From Silicimonas sp. (GTDB lineage: Bacteria > Pseudomonadota > Alphaproteobacteria > Rhodobacterales > Rhodobacteraceae): DNA of 45,571 bases. Of the stretch, positions 18,314 through 24,477 are shown piece by piece. The position numbers were made by a program, and so were the translations under genes. Positions within the stretch are counted from its first letter, which is position 1; the number at the start of each line of letters is the position of its first letter. The notes under the pieces are model-generated. The model did not search any database, had not been told where the DNA came from, and saw only the letters and a program-made list of their open reading frames with translations. The DNA lies in assembly GCA_013003245.1 (NCBI GenBank), contig JABDJX010000231.1, positions 1 through 45,571 on the forward strand. The letters are read 5' to 3'.

Positions 18314-19741
18314 TTGGAGATGATGGGGAACCGCATGGAATCGCGCATTAGCACCGGACTAGTATTTACTGTTGCGCTGATGTTTGCCACGGGCGTTGCA
18401 GCTCAGGAAGGCCAGGTCGTTACAAAGCAATACGACGATGGTGGTGTGTACGAAGGCACCTTCAAAGACGGCAAGCAACATGGGACCGGAACATATCGAT
18501 TACCCAATGGGTATGTTTATGAAGGCGAATGGGTCGACGGCGAAATTCGCGGCCAGGGTAAAGCAGAGTTTCCGAATGGATCGGTATACATAGGTGAATT
18601 CGCCGCAGGCAAACCAGAAGGTCAGGGTCAGATCACCTTTGCCGACGGTGGCACCTATGAAGGTGGCTGGCTAGACGGCAAAATCAATGGTGACGGTGTC
18701 GCGGTTTACGCCAACGGCGTGCAGTATGAAGGCACTTTTGAGGCCGCTTTACACAATGGTCAGGGCCGGATGGAAAGCCCGAATGGCTACACCTATGAGG
18801 GCGATTGGGTCCGTGGCATCAAGGAAGGCAATGGCACAATCACCTATCCAGATGGTGCCGTTTACGAGGGCACCCTCGTGCGCGGGGTGCGCGAAGGCAC
18901 CGGCAAGCTAACCATGCCAGACGGTTTGATCTATGAAGGCGAATGGGCCGATGGCCAGATCAACGGTCAAGGCGTTCTGACCCAACCCAATGGTGACGTG
19001 TACGAAGGCACGCTCGTGGACGGCAAACGTCAGGGCGAAGGCAAAGTGACCTATGCCAATGGCGACGTCTATGAGGGCACGTTTGTTGACGATCAGCGTC
19101 AGGGCAAGGGCAGCTTTGTCGGAACAGACGGCTATCAGTACACTGGCGACTGGACTGCCGGGCGCATTGAGGGACAAGGCGAAGTCACCTACCCCGACGG
19201 CTCTGTTTACACTGGAAGCTTCAAAAATGATTTGGCCGACGGACGCGGCAAAATCGTCTATCCCGATGGAAACACCTATGAGGGCGCTTGGGTCGGCGGT
19301 GTGATCGAAGGCGAAGGCGTCGCTACTTACGCCAATGGCTTGGTTTATGAGGGCGAGTTTAAAGACGCGCGCATGGACGGTCAGGGAAAGATGACCTTTG
19401 CAGATGGCTATACCTATGAAGGGGGATGGTCCGAAGGACAGCGCTCTGGTCAGGGTATCGCAAAGTATTCAGACGGAACAGAGTATCAGGGCACGTTCAT
19501 AAACGGTCAGCGCGATGGTATTGGCAAGATTATCATGCCAGATGGCTTTACCTATGAAGGCGAATGGAGCAGCGGCGAGATCGACGGTACCGGCATTGCG
19601 ACCTATGCTAACGGGGATGTCTACGAAGGCATGTTCGTCAAAGGGCGGCGTCAGGGCGAAGGCACAATTCGCTATGCGACAGGCGAAGAGCGTAGCGGAG
19701 TTTGGGAAGATGGGGCACTGGCCGAGGAAAGCTCAAACTAA
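18314..19741 (+). CDS. secreted/periplasmic MORN-repeat protein (18 full 23-aa repeats plus a partial 19th)
   Basis: Signal-peptide-like ISTGLVFTVALMFATGVAAQ, then tandem (V/T)YEG(T/E)(F/W)xxGxxxGxGxxxxxDG units. Start may be 18314 (TTG) or the ATG at 18335. Confidence 0.9.
   Translation: MEMMGNRMESRISTGLVFTVALMFATGVAAQEGQVVTKQYDDGGVYEGTFKDGKQHGTGTYRLPNGYVYEGEWVDGEIRGQGKAEFPNGSVYIGEFAAGKPEGQGQITFADGGTYEGGWLDGKINGDGVAVYANGVQYEGTFEAALHNGQGRMESPNGYTYEGDWVRGIKEGNGTITYPDGAVYEGTLVRGVREGTGKLTMPDGLIYEGEWADGQINGQGVLTQPNGDVYEGTLVDGKRQGEGKVTYANGDVYEGTFVDDQRQGKGSFVGTDGYQYTGDWTAGRIEGQGEVTYPDGSVYTGSFKNDLADGRGKIVYPDGNTYEGAWVGGVIEGEGVATYANGLVYEGEFKDARMDGQGKMTFADGYTYEGGWSEGQRSGQGIAKYSDGTEYQGTFINGQRDGIGKIIMPDGFTYEGEWSSGEIDGTGIATYANGDVYEGMFVKGRRQGEGTIRYATGEERSGVWEDGALAEESSN
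18446..19690 (+). repeat. tandem 69-bp (23-aa) MORN coding repeats
   Basis: Direct reading of the protein track: 18 successive 23-residue units, for example VYEGTLVDGKRQGEGKVTYANGD / VYEGTFVDDQRQGKGSFVGTDGY. Confidence 0.85.
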
Positions 19742-21034: not shown

Positions 21035-22348
21035 ATGAAGACTTATTTTTCTCAGTTCTTTTCCCGTGACGAGGGTGCTCTCACCGCCTTCGGCCTGATC
21101 CTTACCATTGCCATGATTGGTATTGGCGGCCTCGCGCTTGACTATGCAAATGCAATCATGATCCGCACGCACCTTCAGGTGGCAGGTGACTCGGCTGCAC
21201 ACGCAGCGATTTTTGCCCGCGACACTGAAAGCGAAGAAGATGCAAAGGCCATCGCCCTTGCAGTCGCACACCGGTCCCTCCCTCCTGAACGGTTTGGCGA
21301 CACAATTCTGGCAGACGATATTATCTTTGGTGTCTGGGATGATGCCACCGATAGTTTCGTGCCCACACCCGGCGAAAGAGAAGCTGTTCTGGTCAACACG
21401 CAAAGGCTTGCGTCGCGCGGTAATGCGATGGCGACCTACTTCCTCAATTTTGTCGGCATTGAAGAGATGGACGTTGTGGCTAACTCGGTTTTCATAACCT
21501 ACCGTCCGACCTGCTTTCGCGAGGGTTTCGTCGCCGAAGACCGCGTAGATGTGCAGTCAAACAACGCATATCGTGAAGGCTACTGCATCCATTCAAATTC
21601 GCACGTTGAGCTGAACTCGAATAATATTTTTGAAGACGGCGTCATCGTCTCAATGCCTTACAAGTCCGATCTTGTTATCCCCTCCAGCGGAATGACCAGC
21701 AACACCGGGCTTGAAAACGCGCTCCGCAGCGGCTCCTACAAGCTGCGCATTTTGCAACGCATCGGCGATGTGATTGACGACTATGATGATCCATCGTCCA
21801 AACACTACCGGCCCGGCTATTTCGACCTTCCCATTCAAACGACCAGCCTGAGCGTGAACCAACAGCTTGACGCGGGAAGTTGGCAGGCAGGACAGATTCA
21901 TACAGCGTCATGCAACGGCAATCAGCGTTTGCGGATCAGATCGGGCGCAACACTTCGGGATGGCGTGATCGATACAGATTGCCGCATTGTGCTTGGCTCG
22001 AATGTGACGCTGGAGAACGTTCTCATCGTTTCAACCAGCACAGCTTTGCGGGCCATTGATGGGGCAGCAGGCGTGACCCTTGGTCTTGACGACAATTGCA
22101 GTGCTGGTGGTGGCGTTCAAATCGTCACGCGCGGCGGAGTTCGGTTTACTGCAAACCTAAACATGTATGGGGTTCAGGTTCTGGCGCTTGATCTGATCGA
22201 TTTTGAAGCCAACGGAAACGGAGTCGAGGGTGTCAGCTTTGTCACAGCTGGTGAAATTGACAGCACATCGAACATGGACATGGGCTTTTGCGATGGCGAA
22301 GGCATGGAAACCAATTTCGAGGCCGAGTATTTCCGAATGCACCGCTGA
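21035..22348 (+). CDS. TadE/TadG-like pilus-assembly-related protein
   Basis: N-terminal SRDEGALTAFGLILTIAMIGIGGLALDYANAIMIRTHLQVAGDSAAHAA is the TadG-like hydrophobic N-terminus; the long C-terminal region is rich in beta-solenoid-like short repeats. Confidence 0.75.
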   Translation: MKTYFSQFFSRDEGALTAFGLILTIAMIGIGGLALDYANAIMIRTHLQVAGDSAAHAAIFARDTESEEDAKAIALAVAHRSLPPERFGDTILADDIIFGVWDDATDSFVPTPGEREAVLVNTQRLASRGNAMATYFLNFVGIEEMDVVANSVFITYRPTCFREGFVAEDRVDVQSNNAYREGYCIHSNSHVELNSNNIFEDGVIVSMPYKSDLVIPSSGMTSNTGLENALRSGSYKLRILQRIGDVIDDYDDPSSKHYRPGYFDLPIQTTSLSVNQQLDAGSWQAGQIHTASCNGNQRLRIRSGATLRDGVIDTDCRIVLGSNVTLENVLIVSTSTALRAIDGAAGVTLGLDDNCSAGGGVQIVTRGGVRFTANLNMYGVQVLALDLIDFEANGNGVEGVSFVTAGEIDSTSNMDMGFCDGEGMETNFEAEYFRMHR

Positions 22349-22359
22349 GCCATGAGCCT

Positions 22360-22395
22360 TTGACAAGGCGAGCATCAATCCCTATCTTCGCCCCT
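22360..22395 (+). promoter_or_regulatory. sigma70-type promoter of the leucine leader (TTGACA - 17 nt - TATCTT)
   Basis: TTGACA at 22360-22365, 17-nt spacer, TATCTT at 22383-22388, then 7 nt to the ATG at 22396, which puts the expected TSS at or next to the ATG. Confidence 0.65.
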
Positions 22396-22473
22396 ATGAA
22401 CCAGGCTTCCCACATACTGACCCCGCGCGTCCATGCTGGTGCCGACCTGCTTCTTCTCCTTAGCCGCCTCTGA
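22396..22473 (+). CDS. leucine-rich leader peptide (MNQASHILTPRVHAGADLLLLLSRL), candidate leuL-type attenuator peptide
   Basis: 25-codon ORF with five consecutive Leu codons (ctg ctt ctt ctc ctt) plus a terminal Leu before TGA; lies upstream of cupin-leuA and overlaps strong inverted repeats. Confidence 0.75.
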   Translation: MNQASHILTPRVHAGADLLLLLSRL

Positions 22474-22514
22474 GCGTGCCTGTTGGCGCGACTGCTCAGA
22501 GGGTATATCGCGCC
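22467..22514 (+). promoter_or_regulatory. candidate attenuator: two mutually exclusive hairpins
   Basis: Hairpin A: CCTCTGAGC (22467-22475)/GCTCAGAGG (22494-22502), inner CGTGCC-TGTT-GGCGCG stem. Hairpin B: GGCGCGA (22485-22491)/TCGCGCC (22508-22514). B reuses the 3' arm of A's inner stem. Confidence 0.65.
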
Positions 22515-22540
22515 AAAGACACTGCTAAGGACCGACACCG

Positions 22541-22897
22541 ATGAAATCGATTAATCTGTATGAAAAGCTTGCGCTGTTTGACAGCCATTGGGACCCGCAT
22601 GTGGTCGCCAGCTACAATGACAACGATATCATGGTGGTGAAATTCAAAGGCGAATTTCCGTTCCACAAGCATGACACCACCGACGACTTCTTTTTGGTGC
22701 TGGAAGGGCGCGTGACCATGGATTTTGACGACCATGATCCCGTGACGTTCGGACCCGGAGAGCTTGTCGTCGTGCCCAAGGGCGTCGTTCACCGGCCTCG
22801 TGCGAATGCTGAGGTAAAGGTGCTTTTGATCGAGCCCAAAGGCGAGCCAAACACGGGCGACAGCGGTGAGACCCCCGCGCCCAAGCCACATATCTAA
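22541..22897 (+). CDS. cupin domain-containing protein
   Basis: GEFPFHKHDTTDDFFLVLEGRVTMDFDDHDPVTFGPGELVVVPKGVVHRPRANAEVKVLLIEPKG, cupin motifs 1 and 2. Confidence 0.92.
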   Translation: MKSINLYEKLALFDSHWDPHVVASYNDNDIMVVKFKGEFPFHKHDTTDDFFLVLEGRVTMDFDDHDPVTFGPGELVVVPKGVVHRPRANAEVKVLLIEPKGEPNTGDSGETPAPKPHI

Positions 22898-22908
22898 GGA
22901 CAAGACCT

Positions 22909-24477
22909 ATGGCCGACAAAGACCACGTAGTCATATTCGACACCACCTTGCGCGACGGAGAGCAAAGCCCCGGTGCCACGATGAGCCACGATGAAAAGCT
23001 TGAGATCGCTGACCTGTTGGATGAGATGGGCGTCGATATCATTGAGGCGGGGTTTCCCATCGCGTCCGAAGGTGACTTCGCCGCGGTGACCGAGATCGCG
23101 AAGCGCTCCAAGAATGCCGTGATCTGCGGGTTGAGCCGCGCCAACTTCAAGGACATCGATCGCTGTTGGGAGGCCGTGCAGCACGCCGCGCGCCCGCGCA
23201 TTCATACATTTATCGGCACATCGCCGCTTCACCGTGCGATACCGAACCTGACCAAGGACGAGATGGCGGACCGCATTCACGAGACCGTCACACACGCGCG
23301 CAATCTTTGCGATAACGTTCAATGGTCACCCATGGATGCAACGCGCACCGAGTGGGACTATCTGGCGCGCACAGTTGAAATTGCGATCAAGGCGGGTGCG
23401 ACAACGATCAACATCCCCGACACTGTGGGCTATACCGCGCCCAATGAAAGTGCGGAGTTGATCCGCCGCTTGATTGCCGAAGTGCCGGGTGCTGATGACG
23501 TGATTTTCGCCACGCATTGTCATAACGACCTTGGTATGGCGACCGCCAATGCACTGGCTGCTGTGGATGGCGGCGCACGCCAGATCGAGTGCACGATCAA
23601 CGGTCTGGGCGAACGCGCGGGCAACACGGCCTTGGAAGAGGTCGTCATGGCGATGAAGGTGCGCGGCGATATCATGCCCTACAAGACCGGCATTGATACA
23701 ACCAAGCTGATGCACATCTCGCGCCGCGTTTCCACGGTTTCCGGCTTTGCCGTTCAGTATAACAAGGCCATTGTCGGCAAGAACGCCTTTGCGCACGAAA
23801 GCGGCATCCACCAGGACGGCATGCTGAAAAACGCCGAGACGTTCGAGATCATGCGCCCCGAGGATGTCGGTCTGTCAGAGACGAACATCGTTATGGGCAA
23901 GCATTCGGGCCGTGCGGCCTTGCGCTCGAAGCTGAAAGAGCTAGGCTTTGATCTGGGCGACAACCAGTTGAAAGACGTCTTCGTCCGCTTCAAGGCTTTG
24001 GCTGACCGCAAGAAGGAAGTCTTTGAAGACGATCTGATTGCGCTGATGCGCGATCAGGAAACGGGTGAAGAGTATGACCGGATCAAGGTAAAGTTCCTGC
24101 GTGTCATCTGCGGCACTGAAGCACCGCAATCCGCTGACCTGATCCTTGAGATTGACGGTGAAGAAAAACGGACGACAGCTCAGGGCGACGGCCCCGTAGA
24201 CGCGACGTTCAACGCAGTCACACAGCTTTTCCCGCACGATGCGCAACTGCAGCTTTACCAGGTGCACGCCGTGACCGAAGGAACCGACGCGCAAGCCACC
24301 GTAAGTGTGCGCATGGAGGAAAACGGCCGCATCGCAACAGGACAGTCCGCAGACACCGATACGGTGGTCGCATCTGCCAAGGCCTACGTGAACGCGTTGA
24401 ACCGGTTGGTGGTGCGACGCGAAAAGTCTGATCCCAACGCGGACGTCAAGCAAGTGAGCTACAAGGACGCCGGATGA
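22909..24477 (+). CDS. leuA: 2-isopropylmalate synthase
   Basis: FDTTLRDGEQSPGATM, HCHNDLGMATANALAAVDGGARQIECTINGLGERAGNTALEEV, GKHSGRAAL, C-terminal LeuA regulatory domain. Confidence 0.96.
   Translation: MADKDHVVIFDTTLRDGEQSPGATMSHDEKLEIADLLDEMGVDIIEAGFPIASEGDFAAVTEIAKRSKNAVICGLSRANFKDIDRCWEAVQHAARPRIHTFIGTSPLHRAIPNLTKDEMADRIHETVTHARNLCDNVQWSPMDATRTEWDYLARTVEIAIKAGATTINIPDTVGYTAPNESAELIRRLIAEVPGADDVIFATHCHNDLGMATANALAAVDGGARQIECTINGLGERAGNTALEEVVMAMKVRGDIMPYKTGIDTTKLMHISRRVSTVSGFAVQYNKAIVGKNAFAHESGIHQDGMLKNAETFEIMRPEDVGLSETNIVMGKHSGRAALRSKLKELGFDLGDNQLKDVFVRFKALADRKKEVFEDDLIALMRDQETGEEYDRIKVKFLRVICGTEAPQSADLILEIDGEEKRTTAQGDGPVDATFNAVTQLFPHDAQLQLYQVHAVTEGTDAQATVSVRMEENGRIATGQSADTDTVVASAKAYVNALNRLVVRREKSDPNADVKQVSYKDAG

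Follow-up and report, generated by a model that had tools for sequence, protein, structure and literature searches.

A conserved leader RNA precedes a cupin gene and leuA in the window analysed here, a stretch of 45,571 nucleotides of Silicimonas sp. DNA, and is probably a cis-regulatory leucine leader, with a leaderless open reading frame (ORF) of 25 codons as the basis of ribosome-mediated translational attenuation. Its distinguishing element is a base stem, S0, which joins the last codons of the Leu run to the ribosome-binding site of the following gene and encloses a pseudoknot that contains the leader stop codon.

Anatomy of the leader locus

All features of the locus lie on the forward strand. 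The sigma-70-type promoter (22360-22388) consists of a -35 box, TTGACA (22360-22365), a spacer of 17 nt and a -10 box, TATCTT (22383-22388), and 7 nt separate the latter from an ATG at 22396. This codon opens a predicted leaderless ORF of 25 codons plus TGA (22396-22473), identified from the sequence together with the frame-blind test described below, which encodes MNQASHILTPRVHAGADLLLLLSRL. The C-terminal end of the peptide reads LLLLLSRL and includes a run of five Leu codons (Leu18-22; CTG CTT CTT CTC CTT; 22447-22461) as the putative regulatory codons, followed by the TGA at 22471-22473. The position of a CATATC or His-Ile motif found in relatives is occupied here by CACATA (22411-22416, +16 to +21 from the leader ATG). 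In all these respects, namely promoter, spacing, ATG, ORF and five-Leu run, the coordinates of the original prediction agreed with the sequence.

In the minimum-energy fold of the window, TCCTTAGC (22457-22464; codons Leu21-Leu22-Ser23) is paired with GCTAAGGA (22524-22531); these are the 5' and 3' strands of S0, with a pair probability of 0.98 in the window domain. The 3' strand contains the cupin Shine-Dalgarno (SD) sequence, AAGGA, 9 nt before the cupin ATG. Within S0 lies stem-loop A (22467-22502), whose arms CCTCTGAGC (22467-22475) and GCTCAGAGG (22494-22502) form 9 perfect pairs, with the TGA located in the 5' arm just as originally described. Stem B (22483-22516), formed by TTGGCGCGA (22483-22491) and TCGCGCCAA (22508-22516), makes a pseudoknot with A; it corresponds to the inverted repeat GGCGCGA/TCGCGCC, which is present as reported but extends over 9 perfect pairs, not 7. 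The alternative to stem B, with which it is mutually exclusive, is an inner hairpin (22476-22489) between GTGCC (22476-22480) and GGCGC (22485-22489).

Domain and profile matches bear out the predicted identity of the two downstream genes. The first in the operon is a cupin gene (22541-22897; 118 aa; Pfam Cupin_2), which is optional in relatives, and the second is leuA (22909-24477), encoding a 2-isopropylmalate synthase of 522 aa with matches over the cut-offs to NF002087 (848 bits) and TIGR00973 (665 bits), the profile match assigning it to the bacterial equivalog type. At their junction the cupin stop TAA overlaps the leuA SD within TAAGGA (22895-22900), so that leuA is likely to be translationally coupled to the cupin gene in the window; several relatives also have a cupin stop that overlaps or adjoins the leuA SD. 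On the upstream side, a gene for a TadE/G-like protein with DUF7867 (21035-22348) ends 11 nt before the -35 box. Between this gene and the leader is a short gap in which terminator prediction made no call, and read-through from the gene into the leader is therefore possible. Further upstream, a long ORF (18314-19741) carries many YEGxWxxGxxxGxGxxxxxxG repeats, which look MORN-like by eye.

Taken by itself, the fold of the window does not stand out (z = -1.12; a fold as good is reached by 29 of 200 shuffles), and promoter-like sites in the region are near chance (2 found versus 1.1 expected from shuffles). Because neither the single fold nor the promoter-like sites do better than shuffles, the case rests on comparison: what argues against chance at the sequence level is the recurrence of the leader across genomes, the pairing and covariation of its stems and the frame-blind test of its ORF.

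Distribution and conservation

A search for the cupin gene yielded seven genomes of the same family, including that of the window, in which cupin and leuA are adjacent, and all seven have both stems and a Leu-rich end, with the TGA falling in the 5' arm. We built a covariance model, R1, from these seven loci, supplying stem A as the only structure, and searched the family at E values up to 0.1 with one genome sampled per genus. The leader was matched in 338 of 348 Rhodobacteraceae genomes, nearly always by a single match per genome, and the inspected matches with sufficient DNA all lay directly 5' of leuA or cupin-leuA; one further locus (L071) gave no gene match within its 565 bases. By its own terms, the original prediction would have been refuted had the Leu run and the two stems not been conserved 5' of leuA; they are conserved there, and it passes this test.

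A broader model, R2, matched 38 of 191 genomes sampled across Alphaproteobacteria, belonging to more than 30 family-level groups, and coordinate comparison placed a match next to leuA in all 38. A strong leuA match was obtained in 96 of the 191 genomes of this sample, in which weaker versions of the leader are also visible under the R2 threshold. When the sample was phylum-wide, 21 of 22 matching genomes were Alphaproteobacteria. Furthermore, a DNA pattern that made no use of leuA gave at least 80 matches when 85,488 species of bacteria and archaea were scanned with it. The 80 matches listed look alphaproteobacterial, by name or, in a few records whose titles say no more than Proteobacteria or Pseudomonadota, by resemblance; among them are Gluconobacter, Asaia, Acidomonas, Caulobacter, Rhodovibrio and many Rhodobacterales, and all 78 of those listed that have enough downstream DNA precede leuA or cupin-leuA. 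The leader was likewise found in Acetobacteraceae, Caulobacteraceae, Rhodospirillales and others. Rfam 15, including its leucine attenuator family, had no match at gathering score, either in the window or among 13 related loci, and the matches obtained at permissive E-values were set aside as chance.

Two kinds of variant were observed. Three loci of one genus (g24; L331, L332 and L334) in the same family carry a rewired leader 5' of leuA that the covariance models missed; it ends LLLLTLR-stop, has a TGAGCGG hairpin, and its base stem is altered on both strands (CTTCTTACG / CGTAAGAAAG). The second variant stands 5' of leuA in further families of Alphaproteobacteria (L178, L180, L182, L187, L191, L193 and others); it contains a conserved CTTCGACTTA or CTGCGACTTA plus GCCCCTGA and reads (L)RL..P-stop, with an Arg CGA codon within the Leu stretch; some of these variants fall under the model threshold.

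The leader ORF and its start

In the frame-blind test, the ATG was picked by its distance from a -10-like hexamer, ignoring frame. The ATG so defined by the promoter is in frame with the hairpin stop, with no internal stop, in 87 of 88 loci. Codons -4 and -6 encode Leu in 113 of 113 loci through a mixture of synonymous codons, the last nine codons contain 3-6 Leu in every one of these loci, and the UGA stop is invariant, whereas the central part of the peptide differs widely among relatives. In addition, the leader favours Leu codons that the downstream gene uses less often (CTT, 39% versus 12%; CTA, 9% versus 0%). The original proposal of a leucine leader ORF is supported.

Of the 58 single-ATG loci in which a TAnnnT-type hexamer is present, 47 have its end 7-8 nt before the ATG. 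This conserved spacing fits the leaderless start originally proposed and predicts a transcript that begins at or beside the leader AUG. At a nearly fixed distance from this putative transcription start we also observed the CATATC motif, or His-Ile encoded by other codons: CATAT occurs at offset 15 in 48 of 82 loci and at offsets 17-18 in 8 more, counts which imply that the motif is partly a nucleotide-level signal. Candidate roles include an operator, a pause or a leaderless-initiation element, and its conservation is not explained by the translational attenuation model.

Stems A and B share no strand and can form a pseudoknot

Statistics for the two inner stems were taken from an alignment of 98 distinct sequences that had been fitted to stem A only. 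In stem A, 99.7% of cells are paired and 5 pairs are changed on both sides; for stem B the corresponding figures are 90.2% and 3, making eight such pairs in all, and 0 of 500 shuffles reach the observed pairing or covariation of the two stems. The partner-permutation signal of stem B is weaker (z = 2.7) because its GGCGC core hardly varies, its flanking pairs being more variable. The equivalent of the inner hairpin (22476-22480/22485-22489) is paired in 97.1% of cells among relatives.

A and B have no common strand, as B joins the loop of A to sequence 3' of A, and they can therefore coexist as an H-type pseudoknot, which S0 encloses. The competition for GGCGC that the original prediction had described does exist, but the competitor of B is the inner hairpin and not stem A. 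Strict competition between A and B was rejected on this ground, and with it the idea of a mutually exclusive terminator switch. Intrinsic termination was also rejected as a candidate: none of the 113 loci has a U-tract, defined as an 8-mer with at least 6 T between stem A and the gene, and no terminator was called there in the window. The earlier remark that no U-tract follows hairpin B thus extends to the whole set.

The base stem S0 lies at the start of the next gene

Since MAFFT alignment across the SD region misaligned the 3' strands of S0, this stem was examined by partner permutation. The native stem score of 18.6 compares with 16.4 ± 0.21 when partners are permuted among genomes; a separate run of 1000 permutations gave z = 9.9, and 0 of them reach the native score. 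Compensated variants include TCCTAAGCC/GGCTTAGGA (L135), CTGCTAAGC/GCTTAGCAG (L101) and TTCTTAGTTG/CAACTAAGAA (L108), and the two strands remain complementary in genus g24.

The gene order of the window, with a cupin gene under the leader ahead of leuA, had been put forward as the controlled operon. This order is true of the window, but the cupin is optional, intervening between leader and leuA in 16 of 115 tabulated leaders. Cupin homologues without a neighbouring leuA (L005, L008, L009 and L011-L022) further indicate that association with leuA is not a general property of the cupin. Where it does intervene, the S0 3' strand falls on the cupin SD, lying 4-10 nt before the ATG in 15 of the 16 cupin-first loci, those scoring at least 15. 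In leuA-first loci the 3' strand lies mostly 7-11 or 14-23 nt before the ATG. As judged from these positions, S0 is placed at the start of whichever gene comes after the leader. The fit varies: the Leu codons pair exactly with the SD in the window, as in other cupin-first loci, many leuA-first loci have a 3' strand that borders on the SD without including it, and the S0 score is below 15 in 25 of 99 leuA-first loci.

In local folds of 86 loci selected for having S0, the mean pair probability of the stem is 0.88. When the 5' strand is masked, the 3' strand becomes more exposed (from 0.06 to 0.55 in these loci, and from 0.02 to 0.34 in the window), an effect that a control mask does not have. 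Whole-leader folds with a ribosome mask gave a modest gain in SD accessibility (0.54 to 0.63) that hardly appeared in the window and was similar whether the mask stood at the stop or at the stall position; as they do not separate stalling from stopping, these folds were set aside as main evidence.

A model of translational attenuation and its alternatives

The location of S0 between the Leu/Ser codons and the next ribosome-binding site makes translational control the best reading of the locus. The original prediction, which missed S0, had left the mode open between Rho-independent, Rho-dependent and translational control. The anatomy, conservation and covariation of the leader, the placement of S0 by the start codon and the lack of a U-tract are computational results, and the transcription start, stalling, the direction of regulation and coupling are what the model infers. 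Transcription would begin at or beside the AUG of the leaderless ORF. The last codons of the run, Leu-Leu-Ser, would supply the S0 5' strand, and the 3' strand would be, or abut, the ribosome-binding site of the next gene; the two would be drawn together by the pseudoknot (stem A with the UGA, and stem B) or by an extended hairpin A. With leucine plentiful, the ribosome would complete the ORF and depart, S0 would form, and the cupin or leuA start would be blocked. With charged tRNA-Leu scarce, the ribosome would wait on the Leu codons and cover the S0 5' strand, so that the ribosome-binding site would emerge open. In the window, translation of leuA would follow via coupling to the cupin gene.

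The model has weak points, in that the SD is not always in the stem and S0 is weak in about a quarter of the leuA-first loci. A 3' strand at 14-23 nt before the ATG leaves the SD free, and a block there would therefore need to be steric. The S0 5' strand is covered, too, by a ribosome that sits at the stop codon, which makes the contrast between on and off states a matter of dwell time. Counting further against the model, mutations in the leuA leader peptide of Streptomyces coelicolor, which belongs to the actinobacterial LEU element discussed below, are reported to be inconsistent with classical attenuation in PMC1262725, whose authors favoured a regulatory protein for this reason.

Transcription attenuation could take two forms here. 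In one, Rho-dependent or pause-coupled, the position of the leader ribosome would decide termination, with S0, A and B shaping the RNA. A leader ORF with alternative structures and no U-tract is compatible with it, and Rho has been suggested for U-tract-less cys leaders in Actinobacteria (PMC1262725); termination alone, however, does not require S0 to be kept near the start codon of the next gene, and we regard this form as unlikely. In the other, classical Rho-independent attenuation, stem B would serve as terminator and stem A as anti-terminator. The usual ingredients, namely Leu codons, a stop in a hairpin arm and a downstream stem, are in place, and the same logic operates in Caulobacter ilvBN (PMC4117421), yet the lack of a shared strand, of any run of at least 6 T in 8 in the 113 loci and of a called terminator in the window makes it highly unlikely.

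The strong primary-sequence conservation of stem A and GGCGC, the compactness of the pseudoknot and the regulatory protein proposed for the LEU element (PMC1262725) could instead point to a ligand, tRNA or protein that binds the pseudoknot, riboswitch-like or protein-controlled, with a secondary role for the leader peptide. Against this, Leu identity is kept despite synonymous variation, the promoter-defined ATG is in frame, genus g24 rewires the sequence yet retains the Leu run and S0, and the conserved bases are mostly paired or coding, all of which render such control distinctly unlikely. Nor do we expect a mainly trans-acting RNA or peptide with minor cis control, an extremely improbable reading even though a leaderless leader ORF with trans roles, that of peTrpL/rnTrpL of Sinorhizobium, is known in an alphaproteobacterium (PMC7298713, PMC10117765): the peptide varies greatly in its central part, conservation is centred on RNA pairing and Leu codons, and among the pattern matches listed the leader is always beside leuA where this could be tested. 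Extending the preferred translational model to the class, we are slightly inclined towards a class-wide leaderless leucine leader in Alphaproteobacteria, with a pseudoknot-buried stop and Leu codons that would lock the next ribosome-binding site, as a translational amino-acid attenuator architecture common with Actinobacteria, by descent or convergence, whose lock may be moved to any first gene.

Comparison with known systems

The enterobacterial leuLABCD attenuator represents classical transcription attenuation with a U-tract terminator. In common with it, the leader described here has a Leu-codon leader peptide, proposed to sense charged tRNA-Leu, before leuA; it thus shows the classical feature of a leader ORF rich in codons for the regulated amino acid. 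It differs in having no U-tract terminator and no Rfam match in the loci searched, and the absence of both an intrinsic terminator and shared-strand stems means that it is not a classical transcription attenuator. Translational attenuators of the ermC type respond to an antibiotic with the nascent peptide, and do so without a pseudoknot domain like that of the leuA leader. Pairing of a leader-coding strand with the downstream SD region, as in ermC, is present in the form of S0, and a stalled leader ribosome that opens a stem hiding a downstream SD would be shared with ermC under our model. The signal differs, being an antibiotic there and, as proposed, amino-acid supply here.

Alphaproteobacterial leader ORFs for amino-acid genes are known from trpL/rnTrpL of Sinorhizobium meliloti, where trpL is leaderless (PMC10117765), and from Caulobacter ilvBN; these are transcription attenuators for Trp and Ile/Val, respectively, and their RNA is different. 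A 2013 Rfam-based survey concluded that amino-acid attenuators may have arisen in gamma-proteobacteria with very few transfers (PMC3766115). Our literature search found no description of an alphaproteobacterial leuA leader, though Vitreschak et al. 2004 (FEMS Microbiol Lett) may mention one, and the leuA leader RNA of Rhodobacteraceae and relatives seems to be undescribed in these bacteria. Leucine control in Alphaproteobacteria is poorly described, and here a single leader, absent from Rfam, is near-universal in Rhodobacteraceae.

The closest anatomical parallel comes from Actinobacteria, in which a LEU element 5' of leuA was predicted in 2005 (Seliverstov et al., PMC1262725) and Corynebacterium glutamicum is reported to have a leuA leader peptide containing four Leu codons (PMC4046766). 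The LEU element and the leader described here both comprise a leader ORF with a Leu run, a base stem between Leu codons and SD, a pseudoknot above it, an alternative hairpin on the same base stem and leuA as the target, with no obvious terminator. They belong to different phyla and are likened here by anatomy, which they may share by descent or by convergence. In the alphaproteobacterial leader the leaderless promoter geometry is conserved, a cupin gene may intervene, and the S0 3' strand is in many cases located immediately 5' of the SD, whereas in the LEU element it lies on the SD. The old puzzle of how the actinobacterial element acts becomes testable in genetically tractable alphaproteobacteria, for which cupin-first versus leuA-first loci and the rewired genus g24 provide natural variants. 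The leuA leader has the anatomy of a LEU element and most likely acts as a translational attenuator of the ermC type that senses an amino acid.
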